A stretch of 64,000 nucleotides of DNA from a virus. The translations under genes and the position numbers were made by a program. The DNA lies in IMG/VR virus record IMGVR_UViG_3300034021_000300, positions 1-64,000 of that record. One strand, given 5' to 3'. Positions 2-27,817 of the stretch are shown in pieces; positions within the stretch are counted from its first letter, which is position 1, and every line of letters starts with the position of its first letter. The notes under the pieces are model-generated. The model had not been told where the DNA came from. It saw only the letters and a list, made by a program, of their open reading frames with translations, and did not search any database.

Positions 2-3000
2 TCTACACAACCTCGTACAGATGGTAGATTTAATGCCTTTTATACTACAACCAAAGAAAGTGAAATTTTTGATACTTACCAAGAAGCAGTAGATTGGATT
101 AATGCTAAATATGATGCAGAACTAGCTGCTTTAGAAACTAAAACAGAAGTTCCTGTTACTGAACAACCCACCAGTGTAAGAGAAAGACGTAAAAATAAAA
201 GCGATGAAATAAATAATGATATAAATGCAGAAGGGCCTTTTAAAGTAAGTGAACTACCCGCTGAAACAAAAATTAAATTTGAAGAGGCTTTAGCATATTT
301 ACGAAGTATATTACCTTTTGAAGTAGGAGATATTGATGCTATTGCTGATAGATTAACTAACAATGGTATTACTTTTGGTGCATTTATAGATAATGTAATA
401 TATCTTAATAAGGCTGCTGAAGCAGGCACAGAATACCACGAAGCATTTCATGGTGTAATGAGTTTATTTAGCACAGAAGAAAGAGCAAAGTACCTAGAAG
501 TAGCTAAGAAAGAACATAAAATTACTGACAAGGCAAGGGCAGAATTTGTTTTACAACGTCCTGTATACCAAAACTTATCCAAAGAAGCCTTAGATAAAGT
601 AATGCTAGAAGAATATCTAGCTGATAAGTTTATGGCTTGGAAACAAGGTAAAAAAGAGCCTAATGGTTTTTTTGCCAAAATGTTTGATAAAATCAAGAAA
701 TTTTTTGATAGTATAAAAGATTACTTTGGAGGTAACCTTGATTCTTTATTCCATAGAATAGATAGCGGTAAATACAAACATAGAACTATAGGTGGAAACA
801 AATTACCTATGTTTATGGCTTTGCCTTATAATACTGAAAAAATAAAAGGTACTGACGAAAAGATTATAAAAAAATTAAACAGTACAGAAGAGTCTGATTT
901 AATTAATACTATAAGAGTTGAAGTAGGCGAACTTATTACAGAAAGTCTGGCTAGTAAAGATGTTTACACAATTAAACAAGCTTTTGATAAAGTACTTGAG
1001 ATGCGTGATAATCTTTATTTAGATAAAGCTGATGAGTTATCTGAAGAAGAAGGTGATGAGTATTACCAAAAAAATTCAGGCTTATTTAAAATAACTGGTG
1101 TTAAAGAAGCTGTATTTGAAAAAGTAAAATCACAAATACAATTTTTACTTTCTGTAGATGAAGAAATTGCTGAACGTATTTTAAGTAAAGAAGAAGAAGA
1201 GGATTTAAGAAACTATGAAGCATCTGCTTTACAGAATACAGGTATAAGCAGTATGACACAGTATGTAAGAATACTTATTGCTACTGCACACATAAATGCA
1301 ATAGATAAATATGGTGTGCCTTATAAGAAAGGGATTAATCCTTCTACTATATACAATAGCATTAGCAGGACACTACTAAATACAGCTCCTGAAAACTTTA
1401 TGAGAAAGCTTGAAATTTTCTCAGAATACAATCCTGAAGTAAAAATATTTACTGATTACTTAAAAGATAAATTAAACTGGAATAATGAAACTAACAATCC
1501 AGGATTAAATAATGATGGAGAATTAAAAAATGAACATATATGGAATGCCTTTAAAAAAGCCTTTCATAAATTTAAGGTAGAGTCTATGATGACTAGGTTA
1601 TCTTCAAACGGTGAAACTAAAGTAAGTAGTAGTAATGCTAAAGACGTAGATACACAGCAAATAGAAAGATGGCAAATAGGTTATAGAAACTTTATAGAAA
1701 AGAACTTTACTAAATTAAATATTGCAGATTTTATTTACTTTAATGCAACTTCTCCAATTACTGATGAACAACTTGAAGAGGAATCAAAAAAAGCAAAAGC
1801 AACATTAGATAGTATAGGTATAAAATTATCTCCTTTATATTTACAATACTCTTTACTTGTAACAAAGAAAGAACGTACTGATAAACAACAGGAGCTAATG
1901 GATTTGTATGAAAACTTCTACGGATTAAATGGAAGTGATGGTAAGTTTTTAAAAGAGCTTATAACAGATTTTATAAATACAGGACTTAATCCTTTTACCA
2001 AAGGAGATGAAGGTATGATGGCTAGGTTAAAAGCTCTAGCTATGGAAAATGCTTCATTTGATGAAACAGCAGGTAGCTCTACTTTTCAAGCTGCTGATGG
2101 AGAACTTAGGGGAGATACTTCTTTAGGTTCATTCTTCTTAAAAAGAGTAGCACAACTACAAAAACCTGAAGCAAGGGCAGAAGATTTAGAAGAATTTACC
2201 AGATTCTACGCTAATCAAGAAGATGAATGGATGATTCCACTACATCATTTAGCTACCTTAGATAATCCTTTATATGAGCATGCTGAAACATTTGATAAAA
2301 AGTTTGTATTTACAAACATTGATGGTATAAGGGCAACAGAATATGATGAGCAGGGCAATGAGATAAATAAACAAGAAGGTACTGTATTTAAAAATATGGT
2401 TCCTTTGGAAAAACTACTTACTTTCATGTCTTTGTATTCTACTACAAAAGTAAAAACTACAAAAGAAGGGAAGAAAATAAACTATGCCTACTATTACCCA
2501 CAAGTAATAGAAGCTGCAAGTACAGGTTATGCAATATTACTTCCTGTAAAACCTTATTATGATAAAGGATATAAACCTGCATTTTACCAAGCATTACTAA
2601 GTTTTGTAAAGAATGAGCATGCACGTATTAAGTATGTACAAGAAAATAAAGATTTGCCTTCAATAAGAAACTTTAATGTTGGAGAAAAGAATGGGTTAAA
2701 ATTCTTTGAAAACTCTTGGATTTCACCTGAATTATCTGAAAAGCTAATAGCTTTAAATTCTGTAGATGAAATGTCTGTAGAGTTAAAGAAAGAGTTAAAA
2801 GATAACATTGATCAATTTGTACAACAAGACTACTTACTTACTGTAGATACATTAGTAAGAGAAGGAGCAATAATTGAAGTAGAAGGAGAATTTTACACAA
2901 GACTATTGCCAGAAGCTTTTAGAACTGATAAAAAAATAACAAAAGACGAAAAGACCTATCAAAAAGTAAATACAGAAAAGATAAGGTCAATGCAGGCTAA

Positions 3001-6000
3001 CTACCTTATTAATGGGCAGGCTTTTAATACTTTATTGCATGGAGACTTAGCTTACAAAATTAAAAGTCCTGAAGACCATGTAAAAAGGTTAAAAGGGGCA
3101 CATGGAGCTTTAACTTCTTTATACGGAAGGCAAATAAAATTTAAAGTTATTCCTGACATAAAAAAAGAAAAAAGAAAAATAGTAGTTGATGGGTTACCTA
3201 AATTTGTAGAAGTTACAGAAGCAGAAAGAGCAAAAGCAAGAGAAAAAATTATAGCAGACAATCCTAATTTATCTGAAAAAGAGATAGTAAAGAAAATAAA
3301 AGAAAAACTTGAACTTGATGAACATAACCTTGCAGATGCACAGGCATATACTACTTTAGACTTTCAAATTGCTCGTTTAAAAGAATTAGGTAAAACTTCA
3401 CCTGCAATAGTTAAGATACTTGAAAAAGTAAGGAATGGTGTAGAAATTACAAGGAAAGAGCTTGAATTACTAGAAGGGGCTGACTCTTTACTTAATCCTA
3501 AAAAAGACTTAGCTTATGCACTTAACGCTAATTTAAAGATGTCTGTCCTTACACTAACTAGAGAACTTGTTTCATACAAATCTAAAGGAGAGTGGCTTGC
3601 TATACCAGGGCGTGAAAAAGAGCATAAGATACTAAATGATATGGTAAAGAATACCATAGATTTAGTAGCCCATGAATCTGCAAGTAAAGGCACTACAATC
3701 ATAGATGAAGTAAGAACTTTAAATGGGGAATACTATGGTGAGCAAGTATTAACTAAAGGAGTTAAACAGAAAATAACTGATGGTACACAACAGCTAGCTT
3801 TAATTTGGTCAGAATTACCACAAGAACTTGAAAGCCTTGTAGAAAAACTAGACGAGGCTGAACAAAACAGGGTAATACAATCAACAGAGTTTGCACTTTC
3901 TTTACTTAAAGAAAAAGATGAAACAACTCTTAAAAAAGTTTTACCTAACTGGTATAATAGTTTAGTATCTACAGGGGCTTCTCCACAATTATTAGAAATA
4001 TTTAAACCTAATGCTGCTGGAGAACCTACATTAAATCCTAACATATCTATATCTGTAGCTAAATTTACTGCAATGTACTTAGCCCATTGGTCTAATCACG
4101 CTTTAAAACAAAAAGTTGCAGGCTCTAAATTTACTCTTGTAACTCCATTTAATGTAATGGTAGATAAAGATGATAATGTAGTAAGAGTAGATCAGTTTAA
4201 ATCAGGTGCAAAATATACTAAACCAAGACCTCTGGCTTACAACAAAAGAGGTAAACTAAATGGTAGAGAAATAGTTTATTCAGAGTGTATTGTATCTGCT
4301 TATTACAAAGAATTGTATAATCTAAAAGAAGGTGATGAAATACCTGAAGATTTGGCTTATATGATGGGTTACCGTATTCCTACAGAAGATAAAGCCTCTA
4401 TGGGCGTGCTTAAAGTAGTAGATTTCTTACCTGCAATATATGGTAATGCCATAATGATTCCTGAAGAATTGCAATACCTTTCAGGTGCTGACTTTGATAT
4501 TGACTCTCTGTTTGTACAAAAATATGATATATACGAAAAAGATGGTAAGTTCTACAAATATGGTAGTGCCACAACTACAGAAGGTCAATTTGAAGAGTTT
4601 TTAAATTATGTAAAAGATGAAACTGATGTAGTTGATTACCAAAAAACTTTGTTAGAAGCTAACGAAGAATACCAAGATCTTTTAAAACAAGAAAAGGAAC
4701 TACAAAAATTAATAGAAGCTAGGAATGAAAATATTGCAGAGTTAGACGAAAAACTAAGGGAGGCAAATGATTTTATACCTCTATCTTTATATGAAGAATC
4801 TGAAAAAGAAATTACAAGGTCTTGGGTACTCCCCGCAAAATCTAAAGAAATAGCTGAACAAAAAAGCTTAATAGAACAAGCAAAAGAAATACAACAAAGA
4901 AAGCAAGAAATAAAAGCTAATAAACTAGCAAGTGCCTTACGTTATTATGAATTACCTGCAAGTAAAACTGCTTGGGCAGCTGCTGTAAAAGAAGGTAAAT
5001 ATCCTGATGGTAAATTTAAAGCTGTTCTTAATAACGATTTGCTTACTTACAAATTAGAAATGTTAGGTAATGAAAAAGTACAAAATACTTTGGCTTCTGA
5101 AAAAACATCTAACGAACCTTTATTAAAGCTACAAGAAACGCTAGCAATGCAATTTCCTGCTACATTTGATAGTGGTAAGCAATCATTAGGATTCTTTAGC
5201 TTTAATGATTTAGCAGTAGCTATGGCTAATAATGATGCAGGTTCTGATGGTATTGGCCCAGCAGCTGTATTTAATGTACTATACCAATACTTAGCTAAAC
5301 AAGGTGTAGGTATAAAAGATGCTCAAAGATTTGCAATAAAAGAAGGCTTTACTGTAAGAAAATATTATCAATTTAAAGGGTTTTCTTTTAAAAAGGACGG
5401 AGTATATAGAAATGCTGAAGACAAAAGGATTGTAAAAACCATTTCAGCAATCATTTCAGCAATGACTGACAATGCTAAGGAACCTATTGCAGCAAAGTTA
5501 AATCTTAACTTAGAAACATTAGGGCCTGTACTTGTAATGTTAGGAACTGGTGTAAAACTAAGCACAGCTATAAAAATAGCAAACTCGCCTAAAGTAAAAC
5601 AACTATCGCAAGAAATACTACAAAGTAAGTCTAACTTTTCTGATGTATCTGCGTATAGTATTGTGCAGAATGCAAAAGCAGAAGTGGCTGATGTAGATTT
5701 TACACAAGAAACCACAGTATTAGACGAAGAGTTGCTAGACCTTTTATTAAAAGATGGGGAAGATATTGGAACAACATCTGATATTGCATTAAAATTGTAT
5801 TTAAATGCACGAGAAATATCAGAAGATATATTAAAAGGGCGTGATATACTTTCTCTACGCAAAGGTGTACCTGCTACTTTTGGTGAAGTAGATAAAATAA
5901 TAACTTCTTTAAATAAACTAAGAGATGGAAAAACTCCTGCAACACTAGGATTAAGTAGATTACTAGACGTTAAACCTATTGAAGCCTTAACCAAAGCACT

Positions 6001-7498
6001 TGAAGATTTAAATAGTGTTGCACAACAGTTATTTACAATGCAACACCCATATATTAAAGAAACCTTTAATGTGGTAAAACAAGAAGTTAAAAGGTCAGAA
6101 AGTAAAGATGTATCAAATAAGATATATAGCGATTTAAGTTCTTTTATGAGTTTGTCAATTTTTAGAAAATACTTAGAAGACTATGTTCCATCTAAAAAGA
6201 ATGAAGTTAAATTTATAGAAACATTTAAAGAAGTATTTACAGAAGATGTTTTGTTTGAAAAAACATTGCTAGAAGAAGTAGAAGATTTAAAAAAGAATGC
6301 TAAAAAATATAATTTACAGAACAATAGGTTTTTAAAATATCTATCTACTGAACCAAGGTTAATAAAAAGAACTGTAGATAAAATAGAAGGTAATACACGT
6401 CAGTTAAGAGATTCGGATTACCAATTAGAACTTATTAATGGCTTTGATGATTTATACGCAAATCCTTTAACAAGAAAAACAGCTGTAAAACTATTTGCTT
6501 ACATACTACTTAAAGATGGTGCTAGATATAGAAATGCTTCATTCCAATCTGAGATACCTTCTTACATGTTTAAGATATACTCAAACGCTTTAGATGCGTT
6601 TAGAAGTAACCCTAGTATGGTTGATGTAGTTAAACTTGGAAATGAATTTATAAAGTTATACAGTTTAAACCTGGATAACAGAAAAAGCCTGTATAAAATA
6701 TCAAAAAGTAATCCTCTATTAGGTAAAGGTAAAAAAGATGGCTCATTCAAAGAAGAAGCAGGACAAGTAGCTATATCAAGGATAGAAAATAGTGTGTTCC
6801 CAGAAATAGCTGCTGCTTATAACTTTGAATATAATTCAAAAGATGATGTATATAAACCTGTACCTTTCTTAATGGTTGGTAATAATTTAAAGGTTATTTC
6901 AGAAATAAATGGAAAAGCTGTAACTAATTTATCTGATTTACGTGAAGGAGATAATTTTGTATATAAAGCTGCAAAAGATGTATTTGGTATATACAGCCTT
7001 ACCCCTTCAAAAAGAGGTATATCAGGTTATAGTTTCCCTTTAGAAAAAGCAATAGATTTATTTGGAGCTAAAGTTACAGAAGCAAAAGAAGAAGAAGAAG
7101 CTGAAAGTAGCGCAGGAATATCATTAGAAGAATTTTTACAGGCTAATAATTACTCTGATTTTAAAGAACCTGCTCCTGCTGAAAGAATAGTAACTGAGGC
7201 AGAATATAAGGAAATAAAAGCTGCTGAACCTGTTACTCCACCAACTGTAAAAGCTGCTCCTAAAGTTACCTCTGTATCAGAACAGCTTAAAGAATGGGGT
7301 GTTACTTTTATAGAAGGAATGGATCCATCTGGATTATTTCCTATGACAAAAGTAGAGTTTCATAAAGACACAGAGCAGAGAGTAAAAGATATAGTAAATA
7401 GAAATTTAGATAGTGGTATTCTCTCACAAAGTGCTATCTTAGCAGATATTTTAAAAGCAGGAAAAACAGAAACACTTAAAAAAGCAATAGAATGTTAA
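2..7498 (+). CDS. Giant virion RNA polymerase of crAss-like phage (5' end missing)
   Basis: The frame is open from base 2, so the gene begins outside the window and at least 2498 residues are encoded here. The catalytic motif DFDID (codons 4490-4504, context LSGADFDIDSLF) is the metal-binding aspartate triad of the single-chain, two-barrel RNA polymerases of crAss-like phages (Cellulophaga phage phi14:2 gp66 type), which travel in the virion and transcribe early genes after ejection. An HExxH zincin-like motif (HEAFH, codons 437-451) lies about 1350 residues before it, followed by a basic amphipathic stretch (near 660-740), so the protein may join a protease-like domain to the polymerase. Long charged helical stretches fill the rest. 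The stop overlaps the next ATG by 7 bases, so the two giants are co-translated. Seen: motifs, size, overlap. Inferred: packaging in the virion. Confidence 0.9.
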   Translation, partial: STQPRTDGRFNAFYTTTKESEIFDTYQEAVDWINAKYDAELAALETKTEVPVTEQPTSVRERRKNKSDEINNDINAEGPFKVSELPAETKIKFEEALAYLRSILPFEVGDIDAIADRLTNNGITFGAFIDNVIYLNKAAEAGTEYHEAFHGVMSLFSTEERAKYLEVAKKEHKITDKARAEFVLQRPVYQNLSKEALDKVMLEEYLADKFMAWKQGKKEPNGFFAKMFDKIKKFFDSIKDYFGGNLDSLFHRIDSGKYKHRTIGGNKLPMFMALPYNTEKIKGTDEKIIKKLNSTEESDLINTIRVEVGELITESLASKDVYTIKQAFDKVLEMRDNLYLDKADELSEEEGDEYYQKNSGLFKITGVKEAVFEKVKSQIQFLLSVDEEIAERILSKEEEEDLRNYEASALQNTGISSMTQYVRILIATAHINAIDKYGVPYKKGINPSTIYNSISRTLLNTAPENFMRKLEIFSEYNPEVKIFTDYLKDKLNWNNETNNPGLNNDGELKNEHIWNAFKKAFHKFKVESMMTRLSSNGETKVSSSNAKDVDTQQIERWQIGYRNFIEKNFTKLNIADFIYFNATSPITDEQLEEESKKAKATLDSIGIKLSPLYLQYSLLVTKKERTDKQQELMDLYENFYGLNGSDGKFLKELITDFINTGLNPFTKGDEGMMARLKALAMENASFDETAGSSTFQAADGELRGDTSLGSFFLKRVAQLQKPEARAEDLEEFTRFYANQEDEWMIPLHHLATLDNPLYEHAETFDKKFVFTNIDGIRATEYDEQGNEINKQEGTVFKNMVPLEKLLTFMSLYSTTKVKTTKEGKKINYAYYYPQVIEAASTGYAILLPVKPYYDKGYKPAFYQALLSFVKNEHARIKYVQENKDLPSIRNFNVGEKNGLKFFENSWISPELSEKLIALNSVDEMSVELKKELKDNIDQFVQQDYLLTVDTLVREGAIIEVEGEFYTRLLPEAFRTDKKITKDEKTYQKVNTEKIRSMQANYLINGQAFNTLLHGDLAYKIKSPEDHVKRLKGAHGALTSLYGRQIKFKVIPDIKKEKRKIVVDGLPKFVEVTEAERAKAREKIIADNPNLSEKEIVKKIKEKLELDEHNLADAQAYTTLDFQIARLKELGKTSPAIVKILEKVRNGVEITRKELELLEGADSLLNPKKDLAYALNANLKMSVLTLTRELVSYKSKGEWLAIPGREKEHKILNDMVKNTIDLVAHESASKGTTIIDEVRTLNGEYYGEQVLTKGVKQKITDGTQQLALIWSELPQELESLVEKLDEAEQNRVIQSTEFALSLLKEKDETTLKKVLPNWYNSLVSTGASPQLLEIFKPNAAGEPTLNPNISISVAKFTAMYLAHWSNHALKQKVAGSKFTLVTPFNVMVDKDDNVVRVDQFKSGAKYTKPRPLAYNKRGKLNGREIVYSECIVSAYYKELYNLKEGDEIPEDLAYMMGYRIPTEDKASMGVLKVVDFLPAIYGNAIMIPEELQYLSGADFDIDSLFVQKYDIYEKDGKFYKYGSATTTEGQFEEFLNYVKDETDVVDYQKTLLEANEEYQDLLKQEKELQKLIEARNENIAELDEKLREANDFIPLSLYEESEKEITRSWVLPAKSKEIAEQKSLIEQAKEIQQRKQEIKANKLASALRYYELPASKTAWAAAVKEGKYPDGKFKAVLNNDLLTYKLEMLGNEKVQNTLASEKTSNEPLLKLQETLAMQFPATFDSGKQSLGFFSFNDLAVAMANNDAGSDGIGPAAVFNVLYQYLAKQGVGIKDAQRFAIKEGFTVRKYYQFKGFSFKKDGVYRNAEDKRIVKTISAIISAMTDNAKEPIAAKLNLNLETLGPVLVMLGTGVKLSTAIKIANSPKVKQLSQEILQSKSNFSDVSAYSIVQNAKAEVADVDFTQETTVLDEELLDLLLKDGEDIGTTSDIALKLYLNAREISEDILKGRDILSLRKGVPATFGEVDKIITSLNKLRDGKTPATLGLSRLLDVKPIEALTKALEDLNSVAQQLFTMQHPYIKETFNVVKQEVKRSESKDVSNKIYSDLSSFMSLSIFRKYLEDYVPSKKNEVKFIETFKEVFTEDVLFEKTLLEEVEDLKKNAKKYNLQNNRFLKYLSTEPRLIKRTVDKIEGNTRQLRDSDYQLELINGFDDLYANPLTRKTAVKLFAYILLKDGARYRNASFQSEIPSYMFKIYSNALDAFRSNPSMVDVVKLGNEFIKLYSLNLDNRKSLYKISKSNPLLGKGKKDGSFKEEAGQVAISRIENSVFPEIAAAYNFEYNSKDDVYKPVPFLMVGNNLKVISEINGKAVTNLSDLREGDNFVYKAAKDVFGIYSLTPSKRGISGYSFPLEKAIDLFGAKVTEAKEEEEAESSAGISLEEFLQANNYSDFKEPAPAERIVTEAEYKEIKAAEPVTPPTVKAAPKVTSVSEQLKEWGVTFIEGMDPSGLFPMTKVEFHKDTEQRVKDIVNRNLDSGILSQSAILADILKAGKTETLKKAIEC

Positions 7499-10400
7499 TT
7501 TGCCCTTTAAATTCAAAAATAAACGAACTAACAGTATCATTAGGTAACTACTACGATGCTATGCAAGTGTATCTACTGTCTGAAGGTAAATACCCCTCAA
7601 AAGAAGATGCTTTAAAAATACGTAATAGGTTTAAAAATACACCTTTTTATTCTAGTATATCTCAGTACGAAGATAACTTAAGTATATATAAAAACTTTAC
7701 TACAAATGGCGTAGTTCAGGGGTTAGATAAAGCAGAATTAGCTGAAGTAGAAAAGATATTTAGAAACAGGGGGTTTAAAATTACTGTACCTTTACACATA
7801 GTACAGGGCTCAAAAAAACTAAGAGATAGAGAATCTTGGATGTTTATAGCAGATACTCCTATGTATCAAGCAGTAGAAATAAGTAGAGAAGAGCTTTTAC
7901 AAGATGAGGGCTTAATAGAACAAGACAAAGCTGAAGATAAAATAGCATTTAATAAAACTACTACAGAAAATAAAGAAGCTAAAACTGTTGTAGTAAAGAT
8001 GTTAGATAAACTTGCTAAAAAGTTTAATACACCATACGAAATAATAAATGCTAAAAAAGCTAAAAGTTTATATAACAATTATAATGGTGAAAAAGCTTTC
8101 TACTATAAAGGTAAAGTATACATATTAGAAGATGGCATTACTCTAGAGAATGCTTTACATGAGTTTTCTCACCCTTTTATAAGAGCCATAGCTCAAAAAA
8201 ATGTAGAGCTTTTCACTAACATAGTAGAAGAAATACTTTCTACACCTGAAGGTAAGGCTATATATAATCAAGTAAAAGAGTTATACCCTGAACATGTAGT
8301 TGATGGTGAATTAAATTATGAAGGATTTGAAGAAGTAGCTGTACGTGCTTTAACAGCAGAAGCTCAAAAGCAGTATACTAATCCTTCTTTTGAAAGTGCT
8401 GTACAAAGGCTTATAAAAGCTATAAAGAACCTTCTTAGAGGATTATTCTCTACTAATGCTGTAGATAGTATTGATAGTAATACTTCTTTAAAAGAACTTG
8501 CTGAAATATTGTTAGGTGATGATGCATATAGTTTAGATTTAAAAGATGGTACTTTTGCAGCAAATAAATCTGTTAAGTACGAAATATATAATGGATTACC
8601 ATTTACCGAAGAATCTTTAGCAAGAATGAGTGATGGTGAAAAAAGGATTACAGTAAGAACCAAAGTACATCCAACAGGTATATATGAATATAATGGGCAG
8701 AGATTCAAAATACTTAATCTTGGTCAAAAAAATATAAAAGACTTTAAAACTCCTGAAAGGGTAAAAAGAAAATTCAGAGAAGAGTATAAAAAAGGTATGT
8801 TCAAACATATAGATAACTTTTTTGATGGAAAAACTAATTTATTTGTGTATCAAATAGAAAAGATTGATAATTCTATAGTAAATGAGTATGTAAAAGAAGA
8901 ACCTCTTGATGAAGATCTTGTATTTACTAATGCTACTACCAATGCTACATTAAAGGCCATAAAAGATTGGTTAGTTTCTAAAAAAGATTCTGCACTAAAA
9001 CATAAATCTGATACAGGGCTATGGTCTAAGATTAAAAAAGTAGAAGATATAGAAGAACAGCTTAAGCAATTAAGTTTAGCTGAAATTATGGGCAGTATAG
9101 TTGATGATGTATACAGTGCTCTTGCAGACCCCAATAACCCAAATAGTTACTTATTGCAATTTAAAAAAATTATACAAGAAGTAGCTTCAGCAGAAACAAG
9201 AGAAGATGCTGAAAAGGTAGTAGAAAAAATAGGAGCTTACAAAGAGTATGTAGCAGGTTTAAAAATTATTGATGATTTACTTAACTACCAATTAGCAGAA
9301 GAAAAGCCGAATGAGGGCTCTACCCTTGCTAAACTAAATGGTATAAAAAATGCTTTATTTGAACTTGATAAAAAAATAAAAGATACAGCTCCTTACGTAT
9401 TAGCTATAGCTAACAAAGGTTCTATAAATGAAGAACTTCGTAAGAATATAGAAGCTTACTGGCCTATGATAAAAAAACTAGAGTCAGATATAAGAGAATT
9501 AGAAGCTAAAGGAGAGAAAATAAAAGCAGCTGCCCTTAAGTCTAAAAAAGAAGATTTAGAAAGAAAGTTAGGGTTTCCTTTGTTAGGAGATTTAACACAA
9601 ATCTATTTAGAAGGAGGTAATGATATAAATTTCTTTGAAAGAATGGTTAAAACTGTTGCTAATACCGCAGATGCTGCAATAGGATTGTTCTATAAAAGGT
9701 ATAAAGAAGAAATAGATAAGGGAAGAAAAAAGATAAATGAACTTACTAAATCTACTTACTACAAATACAAACAGTTTACAGAAGGTAAATCAATAGATAA
9801 CTTTGAGCAGCTGTATGAAAAAATGACTGAAGATGTAGATGTTCTTAGATATAATGAAGATAGCGGACAATATGAAACCTTTACAGAAAAATGGTTTATA
9901 TCAGATTTTGACCAAAATGCATATAATCTTAAAAGAAAACAAGCTTATGATTTAGCAGCGCTAGAAGAAAAGAAAGCCAGAGATGCAGCTGCAAATGGTG
10001 ATAATGAGGGGTATAAAGAAGGAATGGCTACTGCAAGAAGAATAAGGGCTAACTTTAGAAGAAATAATACTATAGCACAAGATAAATTAGAAGGCAGGGA
10101 TAAAGTAATAGAAATACTTCTACAAAAAGAAAAATTATTTGATAACAGTGCGGAAGGTAAAAGTCAGTTTTATGCTTGGGTAACTAACCATCTTTACAAC
10201 GAAGAGTTATATATAGAGTATGTTTCACAAGAAGATCCTACTAAAATTGCAGAGTATGGTAAAAGATTGCTAGATAGTTATGTACAAAATAAAGGTACTA
10301 AAGTATCAGGAATGTTTTTAGTACCTGATAAAACTAAATTTCCCAATGCTAAGTATAATGCATTATCTACTGAAGATAGAAAATACTACGACCATCTTTT

Positions 10401-12192
10401 AAGTGTATACAAAGAATCTCAAAAGCTACTACCAGAATTTGAAAGACCTGGGCTAAGAGTACCTTCTGTAGAAAAAGACATTAAAGATATTCTTATTGAA
10501 CAAAAAGATGTAAAAAAATCAGCAATTGCTACATGGGAAAGAAACTTTAAAAATCACGTAGAAGATGCTTCTAAAGGTATTGTCTACAAAGGGCAAACCA
10601 AAAGAATACCTATTTATTTTAACCAAAGTATGGCCGCTGATACAGTAAGTATGAATCTTACCGATACAGTAATGAAATTTGCTGAAATGGCTGAACAGTT
10701 TAAAATAAACTCTTCTTTAGAATCTTTAGCTCTTCTTACCAAAGAAACAATAGCTGAAAGAACTGTAGAAAAAAAGACTTCAACAGGAAAGAAAATATTA
10801 AGTGCCTTACATAAAAAAATGTATGGAGAAGAAGTTGTGGAACCAATAAAATTTGCAGAAACAGAAGCATATAAAATGTTTGAAAGCTGGTTAGACAGTA
10901 ACTTCTACAATGAACGTAGGTATGCTGCAAATTTAGGTACAGTACGTTTAGATAAAGTAGTTGATACAATGATGGCTGCAAATGCTTTATCTGTACTAGG
11001 AGCTGATGGACTTAAAGCACTTTCTAACAGACTTACAGCAGGTGTAAATATTGCAATAGAATCTTTGGGTAATAAATATTTTACAACAAAAACACTTGCA
11101 AAAGGTAAAGCTAAAGTAGGTCAATTAATGTATGCAACAGCTGGTGAAGAAAATCTTTTAATGGATACATTGAGGGGTGTAAAAACAACACACTTTGGAC
11201 AAATGCTAGACATATTCCAAGCTATACAAGGTGAGAATGATGCGGTAGAAGAAATAGGAGGTTCTATGGTAAAAAGACATGCTTCTACATCATTACTAAT
11301 GGGAGGTTTATCAGCAGGTGAATTTATAGCGCAAGCTAATATGTTTGCAGCAATAGCCTATGATATTAAAATAAAAACAAAATCTGGTGAAGAAATAAGC
11401 CTATTAGATGCCTATGTAAAAGAAGCTGATGGTATAGTAAGACTTCGTAAAGATGTAGAATTTACTGAAGAAGATGAACAACTTTTACGTAATAAAATTA
11501 ACGCCATAAACAAAGAATTACATGGGGTCTACAATAAAATAGATGAAGTAGAAGCCAAGAAAAATTGGGTTGGCAGAGCCTTAATACAATTTCGTAACTT
11601 CTTAGTACCAAATGTAGAAAGAAGATTTCAAGAGCTGCATGTAAACTTTGAAATGAATGATATAGTAGAAGGGTATTATAAAACTCTGTACAGAAAAATG
11701 GTTACAGAAAGAAACTTTAAAATTTGGCAAATATATAATGATCCTTCTCTAACTGAAAATGAACGTAATAACCTTAAAAAGGCAGTAGTAGAATTAACCT
11801 CTTACTTTGTACTTGCAGCAATTGTTTCAATACTTGCAGGTATGGGAGATGATGATGATGAACTAAAAGATAACTATGCATACAATGTAGCTCTTTATTC
11901 CGCCCTAAGACTAAAAGGTGAGATAGGATTCTTTATACCAGGTATTAATTTAAAAGAGGGTTATAGAATTATTAAATCTCCTTCTGCTATTAATACTCTG
12001 CTAGAAAGAAGTGTTAAGTTTGGGGGCCAGCTAGTTACTGATCCATTTGCAGAGTATGAAAGAAAATCAGGGCCTTGGGAAAAAGGAGATTCTAAACTGA
12101 AAGCTAGATTTTTAAAACTATTCTTTGGGTATAACGGATCAAACCTAGATCCAAGTATTGCAGTAGAAAATTTTAAAGGACTTTCAAACTAG
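7492..12192 (+). CDS. Giant virion cargo-like protein with zincin (HExxH) motif
   Basis: This 1566-residue protein starts at an ATG overlapping the polymerase stop. Residues around 223-227 read HEFSH in the context LENALHEFSHPFIRAI, a zincin-type HExxH helix. Residues about 375-465 resemble a compact ASCH/YopX-like beta domain (TVRTKVHPTGIY, then YNGQRFKILNLG); this is a weak impression. The middle is long charged helix. Near the C-terminus a hydrophobic segment (TSYFVLAAIVSILAGMG) precedes an acidic DDDDE run. Very large helical proteins next to the polymerase are known virion cargo in crAss-like phages, ejected with the DNA. The protease activity is untested: only the motif is seen, and a third zinc ligand was not identified. 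Confidence 0.75.
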   Translation: MLICPLNSKINELTVSLGNYYDAMQVYLLSEGKYPSKEDALKIRNRFKNTPFYSSISQYEDNLSIYKNFTTNGVVQGLDKAELAEVEKIFRNRGFKITVPLHIVQGSKKLRDRESWMFIADTPMYQAVEISREELLQDEGLIEQDKAEDKIAFNKTTTENKEAKTVVVKMLDKLAKKFNTPYEIINAKKAKSLYNNYNGEKAFYYKGKVYILEDGITLENALHEFSHPFIRAIAQKNVELFTNIVEEILSTPEGKAIYNQVKELYPEHVVDGELNYEGFEEVAVRALTAEAQKQYTNPSFESAVQRLIKAIKNLLRGLFSTNAVDSIDSNTSLKELAEILLGDDAYSLDLKDGTFAANKSVKYEIYNGLPFTEESLARMSDGEKRITVRTKVHPTGIYEYNGQRFKILNLGQKNIKDFKTPERVKRKFREEYKKGMFKHIDNFFDGKTNLFVYQIEKIDNSIVNEYVKEEPLDEDLVFTNATTNATLKAIKDWLVSKKDSALKHKSDTGLWSKIKKVEDIEEQLKQLSLAEIMGSIVDDVYSALADPNNPNSYLLQFKKIIQEVASAETREDAEKVVEKIGAYKEYVAGLKIIDDLLNYQLAEEKPNEGSTLAKLNGIKNALFELDKKIKDTAPYVLAIANKGSINEELRKNIEAYWPMIKKLESDIRELEAKGEKIKAAALKSKKEDLERKLGFPLLGDLTQIYLEGGNDINFFERMVKTVANTADAAIGLFYKRYKEEIDKGRKKINELTKSTYYKYKQFTEGKSIDNFEQLYEKMTEDVDVLRYNEDSGQYETFTEKWFISDFDQNAYNLKRKQAYDLAALEEKKARDAAANGDNEGYKEGMATARRIRANFRRNNTIAQDKLEGRDKVIEILLQKEKLFDNSAEGKSQFYAWVTNHLYNEELYIEYVSQEDPTKIAEYGKRLLDSYVQNKGTKVSGMFLVPDKTKFPNAKYNALSTEDRKYYDHLLSVYKESQKLLPEFERPGLRVPSVEKDIKDILIEQKDVKKSAIATWERNFKNHVEDASKGIVYKGQTKRIPIYFNQSMAADTVSMNLTDTVMKFAEMAEQFKINSSLESLALLTKETIAERTVEKKTSTGKKILSALHKKMYGEEVVEPIKFAETEAYKMFESWLDSNFYNERRYAANLGTVRLDKVVDTMMAANALSVLGADGLKALSNRLTAGVNIAIESLGNKYFTTKTLAKGKAKVGQLMYATAGEENLLMDTLRGVKTTHFGQMLDIFQAIQGENDAVEEIGGSMVKRHASTSLLMGGLSAGEFIAQANMFAAIAYDIKIKTKSGEEISLLDAYVKEADGIVRLRKDVEFTEEDEQLLRNKINAINKELHGVYNKIDEVEAKKNWVGRALIQFRNFLVPNVERRFQELHVNFEMNDIVEGYYKTLYRKMVTERNFKIWQIYNDPSLTENERNNLKKAVVELTSYFVLAAIVSILAGMGDDDDELKDNYAYNVALYSALRLKGEIGFFIPGINLKEGYRIIKSPSAINTLLERSVKFGGQLVTDPFAEYERKSGPWEKGDSKLKARFLKLFFGYNGSNLDPSIAVENFKGLSN

Positions 12193-19621: not shown

Positions 19622-20525
19622 TTGAATCGTAAGCTAAATGCTTCATTTGAATTTCTTCGTTTATTACTCCAATAACTTCATACTCACAAGCTCTGCCTTT
19701 CATATTGTTATAATCTGAAGGGATTGCCACTACATCTCTTGGATTTACCTTAACCATAATTAAAGTATTACCGCTATAAGTAGAAGCATAGCCCCATGAA
19801 GCAAAATGCAGACCATTGGAACAAGTTTGGTTTCTATTGTTATCTACAGCTTGTCTAGGCATACTAACTATTTGACCAACACTATTATCCATAGTACCTG
19901 TATAGTTATCCACAAGCTTAAACTCTTTGTTAGAGTTTTCCAACCAAGCTTTAAATCTTGCTTTTATTTCTCCACCAACAAATAAACCTTTTGCACCTCT
20001 ACAGTTACCTGCTTTATCAAAGTATAACCCTGCAAATTCTTCAGGAACTTCTGCTGTATGGTCTACTTTATCTACTTTCTTGTAAGACACAAAACAGCCA
20101 TCACTAGTAATAGGAAGGCCATTATGCTCCAAGAATAAATAAAGCTCTTCAATAGCTCTAAATTCTGGATTTAGTTGACAATTTTCCCAGAACTTAATAA
20201 GAGCATCAATAGGCAATTCATCATCTAAGAAAGACATAATACGCTTTTGTAGTACTTCAGGTAAAGGTCTTTCTATTCCTTTAACAAATAGTTTACCTAA
20301 ATCTTCTACATACTCTATACGTCCATCAACTTTATGTGCTACACGTTTATATGGAGTTAAAGCAATCCATAATTCTTCTAAATTCTCTACACTTTCTTCT
20401 TTTTGACATTCAGTCAATAATCTTATAATATAATTCCTATGGTCTTTAGATTTAATCTTTATTAACCTGGGAGCACCATTAATGTTAATGGTAATTGTTT
20501 GTTCACTTGCAATGTAACTAATCAT
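19602..20525 (-). CDS. rIIB-like protein
   Basis: A 307-residue protein resembling T4 RIIB. The sequence DDELPIDALIKFWENCQLNP, then LYLFLEHNGLPITSDGCFVSYKKV, then NYTGTMDNSVGQIVSMPR and CSNGLHFASWGY follows the conserved order of the family. In T4, RIIA and RIIB act together at the membrane and in exclusion of lambda lysogens; the role in crAss-like phages is unknown. It follows the rIIA-like gene directly, overlapping by 8 bases, as expected for a functional pair. Confidence 0.75.
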   Translation of the reverse strand: MISYIASEQTITININGAPRLIKIKSKDHRNYIIRLLTECQKEESVENLEELWIALTPYKRVAHKVDGRIEYVEDLGKLFVKGIERPLPEVLQKRIMSFLDDELPIDALIKFWENCQLNPEFRAIEELYLFLEHNGLPITSDGCFVSYKKVDKVDHTAEVPEEFAGLYFDKAGNCRGAKGLFVGGEIKARFKAWLENSNKEFKLVDNYTGTMDNSVGQIVSMPRQAVDNNRNQTCSNGLHFASWGYASTYSGNTLIMVKVNPRDVVAIPSDYNNMKGRACEYEVIGVINEEIQMKHLAYDSNDFWND

Positions 20526-22274
20526 TGATTTCTTCTAGTTTTAGTTGATTTGTAGGTACTTCTTCTTTTAACTTACCTTTTTCTCGTAAATAATCTTTTA
20601 CTAAAGGTAATGATTCTGCTGTTAACTCTACATACTTAAATAACTCTGCACCTTTCATAAAGTTGTTATAATGGTGAACAAGATTAATATCTCTATTATA
20701 CCAACCATTCTTAAGTCCTATGTCTTTAAGTTCGTCTAATAGTTCAAAATCGTCTAATCTTGTAGTAGGAACATTCTGTAACTTACGCATTATATTAGCA
20801 TAATAAGGATTCAAACTATTCATAAATCCATTATGTTTAACCCATTGGCTCCTTATACCATTCTTATTGACAAACTCTCTTAAAACAGCTCTGGTGACTA
20901 ATTCTCTTAATACTGGATGATCTTTCATAACATCTTTAATGTGTATTGCCCTTCTTTGTGTAAAATGTTTTATGTTAGGGACTGAAATGATATAACCTTT
21001 GTATTGCTTATCTAATAATCTCCTACATAACTTAAGAAAAGCATCTAATCTTGGTTTATCTTCCTGGTTACCAACAAATACATAATCTGCAAAGTCTTTT
21101 TCAGTAAGTTTAACATCAGCTCTATTCCACATTAAATCATCATCAGACCAACGTGGATAATTAACTTCTACAGCAGGATATACACCATTCTGACGAACAT
21201 TAGCTACTTTACCTAACTTCCTTTGTTCTTTACGATAAGCAAGAAACTCATCTCTCTTTTCACTTAGCTTAGGAAGAGCATCTACTTCTTTCATTACATC
21301 TTCACAGAAATACACAAGGTCAGCAACTAACTCTTGTTTAGGAGTTATAGCAGGTATATCTACCTTTATAGCTCTTGCATTCAGTCCTAACCATTCTTGC
21401 ATTTCTTTATCCCATACACCATCTTCTTGGTATAATGTATAAAGATTAGGTTCATAATGATGGCTGTAAAAGTTTGTAGAAGAAGTATAAGCTCTACGAG
21501 AACTAGTATTCCAGTAATTACTGTTTACTTTATTAACTATCTGTGCATAATAACCTTCTTCTATCAGCATAAAAGGTCTGTAGTTATTAAATACTACATC
21601 TTCAAAGTCAGACCATACAAAGATTTTACCACCATCATACTTATTAATCTGTACTTTAGGTTTAATCTGCTTTTCCAAGAGATTATTAAATTCTCTGAAA
21701 GTTGTACAGTTCTTGATAGATTCTATGTAGCCTTCTTTAAGCTTCTCTTTTACTTTGGCAAACTTAGCTTTTAATAACTCTATTGTTTTACCTGTATAGT
21801 CTAAATCTTCCCTTGACAAAGTAACTTTTACTTCACCTATGTTACATTTAACTACAACACCATCTAAATTACGTAGATTACTAAATTCTTCTAACTGAGG
21901 ATTACGTAAATCTATGTTGTAAAGTATTTTACCATTAAGTAAACGTAAATCTTCACTTCTGTTGGTAAGAATAAAATCATCATCTTCGTATGTAACTTCT
22001 TTCTTTAAGTCTACTGATAGATTCTTAGTTTCTATGTTACAGAATAGTAACTGATTAGTAATGGCTTGTTCAAATAAATACTTATCTCTTTGTTTTACAG
22101 GTATGATAATTTCAGTACCATTTCCCCTCTGCGTAGGTTGGCTAAACATCAGAGTAATACTACCTAAATCATCTTCATCTATATAACAATTATACTGATA
22201 CTCTGTACCATCATAATAAGTCTTTACATAGTAACTATCTGTGTAACTAAAGGCACTTTTTGAACCGATTCCAA
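20518..22274 (-). CDS. rIIA-like protein, exon 2 (C-terminal part)
   Basis: This exon supplies the last 585 codons of a split gene whose first exon is 23247-23607. It opens with the second half of the GHKL G2 box (GIGSKSAFSYTDSY), which has no ATG of its own; the first ATG is at 22149, 42 codons inside, so taking that ATG would lose a conserved motif. Joining the exons restores GGFGIGSKSAF and gives 705 residues, close to T4 RIIA (725). The remainder is helical with a basic C-terminal third. RIIA-type proteins pair a Hsp90-like ATPase fold with RIIB. Confidence 0.8.
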
Positions 22275-22508
22275 CGTATTATTCCTATATTTCTATAGGT
22301 ACGGACTATATCTTCATTATTTCTAATGTAGGACGCTTTTTCATATAAGGACTAACTTATACTACTTCCTGTTATTAAGCAGACTATACTGCTCAGGTAG
22401 TCTCTGAACCTTCTAAGAATGTATTCTTAGCTTGGCTGCTGATTGACATATCTTTCTTTTAAGACTTAGTTTTCCAGCAATTCATCCTATTTAACGTGAG
22501 CTTGTTAG

Positions 22509-23207
22509 TTATTTACTTTTAATAAATAATACTTCATATTTTTTACGTATATTATCGTATCCAGGAATTTTACTCCAGTCTATATTAAAATAAGGTTTAA
22601 ACTTCCTCTCTAAATGTAAATTATATTTTTGAAATTCTTCAATTAATAGTTTTACAAATGGTTTTTGAGAAATTCGTATCATATAATAATCTTTATCTTT
22701 TCTATAATAAAGGCTAGATTTTATTCCTAAATTTTCTAATTTTAATACTATTGATTCAAATAATTTTTGATTTTTACCTATAACTTCCATTCTAATTCTT
22801 CCTTTATTGTCCTGAAAGATAGTACCATCACCATCAAAAAGCCCTAATAAATAAGAAAAAAATAAATCATCATTTAGTATTGGTAAAAATACATTATTAG
22901 CATTTTCATAACTTTTTCTTTCAAGAATGCCATGTAATTGTAAATCTTGAAATAACTCTTTACAATAACAATAAATATAATAAGAATGATTTTTATCAGC
23001 TCTTTTTTCTATTCTAGGTTCTGTAAAAAACGGAAAAATATTATAAATCTTATCTAATAATTCTTTATCAGATTGTTTAAGTTTTATTTTAGTTTGATAA
23101 GCACCACTTCGTTTATTATAAAATAAACAGCCATCTGCCATTATTAAACCTAATAAATATGCTTTTTCTTTTGAGTCAATTATTTTAAATTGTCCTTGAT
23201 ATTTCAT
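22509..23207 (-). CDS. LAGLIDADG homing endonuclease (intron-encoded)
   Basis: A 232-residue protein with two LAGLIDADG helices, LLGLIMADGC (about residues 18-27) and LLGLFDGDGT (about 113-122). It is therefore a single-chain two-motif enzyme that would cut an intronless rIIA allele and spread the intron. Both motifs keep the acidic metal-binding residue. The ATG at 23207 is chosen because the in-frame codons upstream are a TTG start and overlap a TATATTTG promoter-like site. The ORF sits in the P1 loop of the intron. Confidence 0.9.
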   Translation of the reverse strand: MKYQGQFKIIDSKEKAYLLGLIMADGCLFYNKRSGAYQTKIKLKQSDKELLDKIYNIFPFFTEPRIEKRADKNHSYYIYCYCKELFQDLQLHGILERKSYENANNVFLPILNDDLFFSYLLGLFDGDGTIFQDNKGRIRMEVIGKNQKLFESIVLKLENLGIKSSLYYRKDKDYYMIRISQKPFVKLLIEEFQKYNLHLERKFKPYFNIDWSKIPGYDNIRKKYEVLFIKSK

Positions 23208-23211
23208 AGGA

Positions 23212-23219
23212 CAAATATA
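23212..23219 (-). promoter_or_regulatory. Promoter-like -7 box of the LAGLIDADG ORF
   Basis: TATATTTG is an exact match to the Bacteroidota -7 consensus TAnnTTTG. A TTG at 23240-23242 lies 20 bases upstream. The ATG starts 4 bases after the box, the same arrangement as at 50215. It would let the endonuclease be expressed apart from the rIIA message. Confidence 0.5.
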
Positions 23220-23246
23220 CAAAAAATATTTAATATCTACAAGTCA

Positions 23247-23607
23247 ACCCACCAATAGAATTATTATCAGTTCTTTTAGTAGAACTAAGGTACTTACCAA
23301 ATATATTGGTTACTCTATCTTCACTTAAGCCTATTCCGAAGTCTCTAATAATTAACTGAGTATCAATACCTAACAATTCTGAAGCATCAACCCATTCTAT
23401 TTCTACAGGTTTATCTACTCCATACTCTGTATGTGCATCAATGGCATTACTTACATATTCTCTAATGATGGTATACTCTTTATTCTGATACAGATTATCT
23501 CGTAACATCTTAAACAGAAGTCCAAAGTTATCTGAATCTATACTATATTTAATACTCTTTAATTCTTCTGATTTTATTACGTCCTTACTTTCTTTATCTA
23601 TAATCAT
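23247..23607 (-). CDS. rIIA-like protein, exon 1 (GHKL ATPase N-terminus)
   Basis: This exon encodes the first 120 codons plus one base. It shows the GHKL N-box (REYVSNAIDAHTEYG, about residues 49-63), the G1 box (IRDFGIGLS, about 93-101) and the ATP-lid approach (KYLSSTKRTDNNSIGG), where the intron interrupts the G2 box. Read through without splicing, the frame ends six codons into the intron at 23230, giving a 125-residue fragment lacking the rest of the ATP pocket. See the exon 2 entry for the joined protein. Confidence 0.8.
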
Positions 23608-23881: not shown

Positions 23882-24319
23882 CTATTCTTTTCTATTATTA
23901 ATCCCCTTAAAAAAACGTGCCATTATATTACCATTAAATGCATCTGTACTAAGTACATCATACTGTACCTGCACCACCATTTCTCTGTACGAGAGATGTT
24001 GTTTACTATGGCAAAATTCTAGTATTTCTCTTTTAAACTCTTTTTCTTTACCTTCAGCAATCATAGCAGAAATTTCCTTGTTTGAGCCAAAATATGTTTC
24101 CCAATTAGACTGCTTTACAGTAGTTTTAAAGGTCTTTCTAGTCTTAGTAGCTACTTTCTCCTTCTTAGATATTTTAGTACGTCTCTTAGCTTGTAAAAGT
24201 TTTTTTCCTATGTATATTCTAGAACTGGGTTTATGTGTAATTTTATAGATAAATCCACATGCCCATTCTGGAATATCTTCAGGAGTTATAGGTTTTCCTT
24301 TATAATACCATTTACTCAT
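23882..24319 (-). CDS. GIY-YIG-type nuclease-like protein
   Basis: A 145-residue protein. GFIYKITHKPSSRIYIGKK (about residues 22-40) matches the GIY...YIG core, followed by a lysine/arginine-rich stretch and SNWETYFGSNKEI (about 70-82), a phrase common in phage relatives of this group. It could be a free-standing homing endonuclease or a phage DNA-processing nuclease. It is not inside a visible intron. Confidence 0.65.
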   Translation of the reverse strand: MSKWYYKGKPITPEDIPEWACGFIYKITHKPSSRIYIGKKLLQAKRRTKISKKEKVATKTRKTFKTTVKQSNWETYFGSNKEISAMIAEGKEKEFKREILEFCHSKQHLSYREMVVQVQYDVLSTDAFNGNIMARFFKGINNRKE

Positions 24320-26147: not shown

Positions 26148-26354
26148 TTATTTGTTTTTAATTGTTTTGTTATATTTAAAAAATTCTATTCTTGTGTAAG
26201 TACTATTTTTTATTATTGTTAATAATGATATTGGCTCTTCTTTTGAAGCTATATCTAATTCTAATAGATTAAAGTTAAACTTATAAGCTGTTAAAACTAT
26301 TGATATAATACAAAATTGCCATCTACTAGTACCAAATCTTAGTGTTAATCCCAT
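26148..26354 (-). CDS. Small hypothetical protein
   Basis: A 68-residue basic protein (MGLTLRFGTSRWQFCIISIV... ending YNKTIKNK). Its ATG overlaps the stop of the ATPase exon 2 (TAATG), which supports translation. No family recognised. Confidence 0.45.
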   Translation of the reverse strand: MGLTLRFGTSRWQFCIISIVLTAYKFNFNLLELDIASKEEPISLLTIIKNSTYTRIEFFKYNKTIKNK

Positions 26355-26718
26355 TATTCGTTGTAGTATTTATAGATTGTTTCTTTTACATACCCTAAAT
26401 CATTAGGAATGTATTTATCTGCAAACATACCTACAGGTGATTTACAGGTGCTTTCTCCATCTGTTTGAGTCATAAACTGATACTTCATTTTACCTGTCTT
26501 AAAATCTTCTAAAATAGGTCGTGCGTAAAGTATTGTAGTAAATAAGCCATCTAAATATATGGAATTGTCAATTAGCTTACCGCTTGTCTTAATCTTTAAT
26601 TTACCGTCTTCACCCTTCTCTTGGTGAAACAGGCAAAATACATCTACATTTTCAGGCAACTTACGTAGTTTATCTACTATCTTCCACATTTTTTGTGCTA
26701 CTTCCGTAAATTTTTCAT
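26354..26718 (-). CDS. P-loop ATPase (Sak4-like), exon 2
   Basis: This exon gives the C-terminal 120 residues of the split ATPase. Joined to exon 1 at 27478 it restores KAKDKGYEKFTEVAQKMW in frame, 234 residues in all. It includes a strand-like stretch DVFCLFHQEKGE that fits a RecA-fold sensor strand, and a C-terminal LGYVKETIYKYY. The ATG inside MKNTRFNDEK at 26740 belongs to the intron and is not the real start. Confidence 0.75.
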
Positions 26719-27477
26719 CGTTAAACCTTGTATTTTTCAATACAAGCCAGACTATATCTTAATTAATTTGCTTTGTAATTTATAGCTTCTTCAAAAGTCA
26801 TTTTACTTCTAAAAATTCTTTGGTAAAGGGAAGTATATTTAATACCTAATTTTTCAGCCCAATGTTTTAATACCATTGTTTCTCCATTATAAGTATAAAC
26901 TCTGTTAAAGCCTGTTCTATTTGCGCTTTGTGTTTTCCAAGTAGCCCACCTACAATTATCAGGCGAATAATCTTTAGTAGAATCTATTCTGTCTAAAGTA
27001 TACTCAGGGCCAGGAGCTACTCCCATGTCATCAATAAAATTGACAAAAGAGTTTAACCACCTATCACAAACCTCAATATTTAACTTTTTATACTTTCCCA
27101 TATTTTCATTACATTTAGCATAGCACCTAGCTTTCATAGCTTTCCAAGCTCTATACTCTTTTGTAATTTTACCATCAGTTTTTCCTCTGTAAATACCTTT
27201 TCTCATGTTATTAAAGTTTTAGTAAATATACTAAATCTTTTCTTACAAAACAAATTAATTCTACCCGTTTCCATATATTTCTATATGTACTCTACTAAGT
27301 TCTACAAATGTAGCTTTTCGATAGTCGTTGAACTTTACTCCCATAAGGAGTCTTAGCTGCTGATTGCCCAATCTTTACCTCTTTTACTATACTATAGTCA
27401 TTACTGCTATAGGGAGTGTGTAAAGCTCTAAGGGTATTCCAGTCAATTAGAGTAGTTTTATAAGGGCATGAAATTCC
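26719..27477 (-). other. Group I intron in the P-loop ATPase gene
   Basis: A 759-base intron. Minus-strand elements: P AATTGACTGGAA (27437-27448), Q AATCAGCAGCTAAGACTCC (27347-27365), R GTTCAACGACTATC (27320-27333) and S AAGATATAGTCTGG (26747-26760). The exon end AGGGT pairs with GCCCT a few bases into the intron, giving a U-G wobble at the 5' splice site after 27478. The intron ends with G at 26719 and the frame is restored. The HNH ORF lies between R and S, so in the P8 region. Splicing is inferred. Confidence 0.85.
26763..27206 (-). CDS. HNH homing endonuclease (intron-encoded)
   Basis: A 147-residue protein of the phage HNH type: RWLNSFVNFIDDMG (about residues 48-61), then LDRIDSTKDYSPDNCRWATW (about 71-90), with the D-R-I-D, N-C-R-W-A-T and Q-N-R residues of the family. 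A C-terminal helix pair (LKHWAEKLGIKYTSLYQRI) is a NUMOD-like DNA-binding end. It stops 2 bases before the S element of the intron. TAGTATATTTACT about 20 bases before the ATG is a promoter-like site. Confidence 0.85.
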   Translation of the reverse strand: MRKGIYRGKTDGKITKEYRAWKAMKARCYAKCNENMGKYKKLNIEVCDRWLNSFVNFIDDMGVAPGPEYTLDRIDSTKDYSPDNCRWATWKTQSANRTGFNRVYTYNGETMVLKHWAEKLGIKYTSLYQRIFRSKMTFEEAINYKAN

Positions 27478-27817
27478 ACCCTTTGTCTTTAGCCTTAGCC
27501 ATCATATCAAAAGCCATAAGATAATTTCCGTCATCAATCACATAATTTACTATATCTTTACGATTTGCAGAGCAGTAGTCTATTAGTTTAAGGATTTCAT
27601 CCATATTATCCCCTTGATAATAATTACCTCCTTCAGATATTTTCTTATCTTTTGGATACATTTTGTTAGCTCCTCTTGCAGGAATAGGTTTTGCTGATAC
27701 ATTGATATAAAGTGTTTCGGCAGGATTTAATCCTATTATTCCTATATCTGCGTTAGGAAAAATACTTGTTGATTTGCCATCACCTGATGAACCCACTATA
27801 CCTATTAAATTTGCCAT
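27478..27817 (-). CDS. P-loop ATPase (Sak4-like), exon 1
   Basis: The first 113 codons plus one base of a RecA-fold NTPase. Walker A is GSSGDGKST (residues 9-17) and Walker B is VNYVIDD (about 91-97). Phage proteins of this shape act as Sak4-type single-strand annealing or recombination ATPases or as replication accessory ATPases; which one applies is not settled. Unspliced, the frame ends shortly after GWNF at 27458. It overlaps the gene upstream by about 13 bases. Confidence 0.75.

Follow-up and report, generated by a model that had tools for sequence, protein, structure and literature searches.

Is the rIIA-like gene of the virus considered here broken into two pieces, or is it a single gene interrupted by a removable element? 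The question arises on the minus strand of a 64,000-nucleotide stretch (the window; positions 1 to 64,000 of IMG/VR record IMGVR_UViG_3300034021_000300), where open reading frames (ORFs) of 125 amino acids (23607..23230), 232 amino acids (a LAGLIDADG ORF) and 543 amino acids from the first ATG (22149..20518) occupy the locus. An original prediction, made from the sequence alone, placed a group I intron at 22275-23246, inside the ATP-binding motif of the gene. Phage introns favour conserved protein genes, and no description of a group I intron in rIIA was found in the openly licensed literature. The analysis presented here indicates that the element is almost certainly a true mobile group I intron, and one of a kind already known; the basis for this is its fold, its guide, an exact empty site, an ortholog that occupies this very site in the distant crAss-like phage cr116_1 (NC_055882), and local synonymous divergence. 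The coordinates are collected in Table 1.

The joined rIIA gene and its empty sites

Excision of 23246..22275 yields a single frame of 705 codons, MIID...SIGGFGIGSKSAF...EEIND, in which SIGGFGIGSKSAF spans the 23247/22274 junction and the G2 box of the GHKL ATPase domain, IGGFGIG, is restored. The product has the predicted length and matches the RIIA family phrog_612 over residues 1-692 (E 2e-80), with the GHKL N, G1 and G2 boxes in place, whereas the separate pieces reach only about 1e-28 (9.5e-29 for the 5' fragment) and 5e-25; the match of the joined protein exceeds the sum of those of the pieces. The HATPase_c_3 score likewise rises from 21.5 bits unjoined to 33.7 bits joined, across the cut-off of 25.

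The splice sites proposed in the original prediction agree to the nucleotide with the empty alleles of four IMG/VR relatives (L001, L002, L003 and L005), which are 92-99% identical in protein and whose rIIA genes align without gaps at exactly 23247/22274. In these relatives the gene is uninterrupted and its G2 box intact, rather than divided into two genes lacking the box at the join, as would have been expected had the prediction been wrong. The remaining crAss-like rIIA genes retrieved are continuous through the motif, with the exception of the split genes of L022-L024 discussed below; that of L025 is continuous to the contig end. The host is itself a crAss-like phage (Crassvirales), assigned at the order level: its TerL matches 127 records with at least 80% coverage, the best among the matches listed being 33-36% identical (cr125_1 and others).

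Table 1. Features of the rIIA locus, of the second interrupted gene of the window, and of the insertion in related contigs
Feature	Position	Strand	Description and evidence
rIIA 5' exon	23247..23607	minus	120 codons + 1 nucleotide; GHKL N box, G1 box and first part of G2 box
Group I intron	22275..23246	minus	972 nucleotides; RF00028 match, empty sites, covariation with cr116_1 ortholog
Promoter-like TTG-N20-TATATTTG	23212..23242	minus	just upstream of the intron ORF's ATG (23207)
LAGLIDADG homing endonuclease ORF	22509..23207	minus	232 amino acids, two motifs, in P1 loop; ATG at 23207
Internal guide sequence CAAGCUCAC	22496..22504	minus	GCUCAC:GUGGGU of 5' exon (P1); CAA:UUG of 3' exon (P10)
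Catalytic core P3-P9, ending in omega-G	22275..22489	minus	Rfam match, fold, covariation
rIIA 3' exon	20518..22274	minus	joined translation and phrog_612 match
Sak4-like gene (single-stranded DNA-annealing / P-loop ATPase), 5' exon	27478..27817	minus	phrog_2872; joined ORF
Second group I intron	26719..27477	minus	759 nucleotides, HNH ORF; RF00028 in two pieces, guide, empty sites
HNH endonuclease ORF in second intron	26763..27206	minus	phrog_3377, 2.9e-45; ends just before P7'
Sak4-like gene, 3' exon	26354..26718	minus	empty-site comparison and joined ORF
Group I-like insertion in rIIA	L023 4346-4607 (also L022, L024)		262 nucleotides, ORF-less

Fold, guide and endonuclease of the rIIA intron

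The covariance search proposed with the original prediction gave, in a narrow Rfam scan, a match to RF00028 (Intron_gpI) at 22550..22283 of the minus strand, covering the full model 1-253 with 74.3 bits (cut-off, 50 bits; E 9.8e-19). Whole-window scans with cmscan, either at the gathering threshold or at E<=1, missed this intron because of their speed filters, the narrow scan alone detecting it, and a negative large-scale scan therefore does not exclude AT-rich, ORF-bearing introns of such a type. Helices P3, P4, P5, P6, P7 (pseudoknot), P7.1, P7.2, P8 and P9 are all formed, so that the conserved core with the G-binding P7 helix is present, and the final intron base is the expected G, at 22275.

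The guide CAAGCUCAC pairs with GUGGGU/UUG over 9 base pairs across the ligated exons, 6 of them in P1, the predicted pairing to the 5' exon, with a terminal U.G at the splice site, and 3 in P10. It follows the endonuclease ORF and precedes P3 by about 6 nucleotides; with the 5' splice site on one side of it and the guide on the other, the ORF is located in the P1 loop, as had been proposed, and the short interval before P3 leaves no room for P2. The P2 assignment of Rfam was rejected, as it falls in the AT-rich end of the ORF, is not conserved, and has no space between guide and P3. Hairpins P7.1 and P7.2 lie between the P7 5' strand and P3', and the last hairpin carries 5 compensatory changes (helices 8-10). 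With P7.1 and P7.2 in this position, the intron, which lacks P2, may be called group IA-like (IA2-like).

The ORF matches LAGLIDADG_3 (Pfam PF14528) with 66.5 bits (cut-off, 22.5) and is of the predicted two-motif type, both motifs (LLGLIMADG and LLGLFDGDG) being intact, with their acidic residues, and conserved in the ortholog. The promoter-like site of the original prediction is present as TTG-N20-TATATTTG, with a chance of about 0.0006 in a 40-nucleotide head, but a site of the same spacing is not conserved in cr116_1. It agrees with the Bacteroidota promoter consensus, and is plausible as a promoter of that type that the phage may use. Neither the LAGLIDADG protein by itself nor the guide-core pattern gave a match when searched against IMG/VR, and relatives sought in prokaryote genomes were not found either; a two-sequence profile of the endonuclease recovered 60 relatives, none of them near an rIIA.

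An orthologous intron in a distant crAss-like phage

Among phage records, the closest LAGLIDADG protein is KNV40_gp079 of cr116_1, flanked by gp080 ('RIIA lysis inhibitor') and gp078 (VOG4594). The NC_055882 annotation thus gives rIIA as two genes around an endonuclease, the division that the original prediction had expected of ordinary annotation, with a product already named as an intron-encoded endonuclease. The cr116_1 intron (1026 nucleotides, 80.8 bits in Rfam) shares the identical insertion nucleotide and guide core, and its guide pairs over 12 base pairs with the exons. Double compensatory changes distinguish the two introns at 14 of 62 pairs (0-1 in slid controls), and standard pairs fill 99.2% of the structure cells across both, in support of the fold. 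An intronless allele close to cr116_1, that of L014, provides the empty site for the ortholog. At exon base -2, both intron-bearing alleles have G, as the guide requires, and the intronless alleles examined have C, A or T.

The endonucleases of the window phage and cr116_1 are 52% identical, whereas identities between their host proteins are 31% for TerL, 29% for portal, 39% for PolA, 28% for rIIB and 30% for rIIA; this difference argues for horizontal movement of the intron, and the simplest reading would be that it moved between the lineages after their split. More group I intron matches occur in NC_055882 (G005:C1:9286-10332), including some near capsid and exonuclease genes, and in the related crAss-like contigs L029, L031, L036 and L037.

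Synonymous divergence and other insertions

Synonymous differences were counted within 10 codons of the insertion site, with an expectation stratified by amino acid, which rejects amino-acid composition as the cause of the excess observed. Between the window and L003 there are 12 such differences where 1.9 are expected, in an island about 45 base pairs wide, centred on the insertion site and without amino-acid change; the corresponding values are 11 and 3.7 for the window and L005, and 11 and 3.0 for cr116_1 and L014. An excess is also found between intronless alleles (12 observed and 3.6 expected for L001 and L002; 10 and 2.4 for L003 and L002), and there is none between L003 and L005. Intron gain with co-conversion explains the excess in the intron-bearing comparisons; co-conversion between intron-bearing and intronless alleles alone fails for the two intronless pairs, which call for an earlier gain and loss of the intron, mutagenic repair, or selection favouring escape from cutting. 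The island may reflect repeated homing or escape from homing at the site. Elsewhere, the segments 26160-25669, 24490-24429 and 19476-19192 are highly divergent from the otherwise approximately 95% identical L003, suggesting allele swapping.

The same motif is interrupted differently in L022-L024, where an ORF-less insertion of 262 nucleotides lies 5 nucleotides downstream of the site of the LAGLIDADG intron, between GGCUUCGGU and AUUGG. Its guide, UCCAAUGCCGA, pairs over 11 base pairs with the joined exons, its last base is G, and its removal gives an rIIA of 734 codons. A search of 601 bases gave no RF00028 match at E<=1, and the insertion, unrecognised by Rfam, is therefore called only group I-like.

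A second group I intron of the window, 3.5 kb upstream of that in rIIA, interrupts a Sak4-like gene that also would be split by ordinary ORF calling. Its RF00028 match is divided into two parts, of 31.3 and 26.6 bits, and its guide, UUUCAUGCCCUU, forms 12 base pairs with AAGGGU/AUGAAA across the joined exons, with U.G at the splice site; exact empty sites are found in L001, L003 and L004. Three differences, of 11 in 705 nucleotides, straddle this site.

Proposed mechanism and alternative explanations

According to the mechanism favoured here, the intron RNA would fold into the P3-P9 ribozyme core, its guide pairing with both exons, and would splice itself out of the rIIA message through the two guanosine-dependent steps usual for such introns, so that RIIA regains the G2 box (IGGFGIG) of its GHKL ATPase domain. 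The LAGLIDADG protein would be made from the intron, perhaps off its own promoter, and would cut intronless rIIA alleles of co-infecting phages at the insertion site, where repair templated by the intron-bearing copy would install the intron together with some flanking exon. Several points weigh against this picture. Splicing, cleavage, homing and promoter use are all deduced from sequence, and just two members of exactly this intron are known. A second 9-base-pair guide match lies inside the intron ORF, so that length alone is not unique, the true pairing being singled out by position and conservation. The island at the site is not the strongest of the region, as the window and L003 diverge more strongly at five others within the 11 kb compared, and ordinary mosaic recombination could therefore contribute.

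That the locus holds two separate genes, a truncated rIIA whose 125- and 543-amino-acid ORFs are made as independent proteins around an endonuclease gene, is scarcely credible: a start codon candidate exists in each ORF, and NC_055882 is annotated in this way, but the interruption lies within the G2 box, the gene is single in close relatives, and the intervening RNA is a full group I core with compensatory changes and a guide matching both exons. An intron that splices and is no longer mobile, its endonuclease a relic, would accord with the existence of close relatives without the intron and with intronless sites that depart from the intron-bearing one at several bases, so that few matching targets may remain; nevertheless, the ORF is intact and has kept its motifs and acidic residues at 52% identity, which suggests selection for activity, and the horizontal distribution implies past mobility, making this explanation improbable. 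Less easily dismissed, yet still rather unlikely, is an origin of the synonymous island in the exchange of sequence with diverged rIIA alleles by ordinary recombination, or in relaxed codon constraint, instead of homing. The further islands in the same phages, and the N-terminal domain of L004, derived from a diverged allele, are in agreement with it; the narrowness of the island, its centring on the site, its purely synonymous character and its significance after stratification are not, nor are the independent island between cr116_1 and L014 and the smaller cluster at the site of the second intron. As a tentative proposal, possible but falling somewhat short of probable, the G2 box of crAss-like rIIA may be a contested homing site, invaded repeatedly by different introns in several phage lineages and escaping by continued synonymous change in intronless phages, with the ATP-binding motif itself kept fixed.

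Neighbouring genes

A free-standing SegE-like GIY-YIG endonuclease gene (23882-24319) lies two genes upstream of rIIA; over 24310-23625 the window shares only about 72% identity with L001/L004, and in L002 this segment has a different length. Farther away, a GroEL-type chaperonin gene is present in this crAss-like phage at 47924-49528 (phrog_5725, E 2.5e-140), and two giant ORFs of 2346 and 1566 amino acids, the former without a PHROG match, occupy 458-12192 and are possibly the crAss-type RNA polymerase block.

Significance and comparison with known systems

The results correct the rIIA gene model of crAss-like phages, a RefSeq record included, and document that one intron has passed horizontally between phages sharing only 28-39% identity in their core proteins. 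The synonymous haplotypes that occur naturally at the rIIA site are directly usable as endonuclease substrates.

The nearest counterpart, cr116_1 (NC_055882.1, KNV40_gp080/gp079/gp078; Pamirivirus, Steigviridae), has in common with the window phage the gene, insertion nucleotide, guide, P1-loop LAGLIDADG ORF and core fold, and differs in its host lineage, its longer guide pairing and the listing of its rIIA exons as separate genes. Within Crassvirales, group I introns with endonucleases have been described in core genes of Delta and Zeta crAss-like phages, including ATP_43b (Yutin et al. 2021, PMC7886860); these are alike in order, intron group, endonucleases and location in core genes, but rIIA is not mentioned in the text of that paper. 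The group I introns in the recA-like gene of staphylococcal phages encode a related LAGLIDADG endonuclease (about 31% identity), in another host gene and with distant sequence. The Jug phages, Bacteroides phages of the gut, carry numerous group I introns, 37 of 76 of which have metatranscriptomic support for splicing (PMC12363816); they are an unrelated clade, and the interrupted genes described there include terL, nrdD and DNA polymerase. In fungal mitochondria, excess polymorphism has been reported beside mobile intron sites (Repar and Warnecke 2017, PMC5378118), and the rIIA site offers a natural system for the question raised there, whether such variation stems from co-conversion, mutagenic repair or escape selection; here, in contrast, the genomes are those of phages, the excess is purely synonymous within 10 codons, and it is found between intronless alleles as well.
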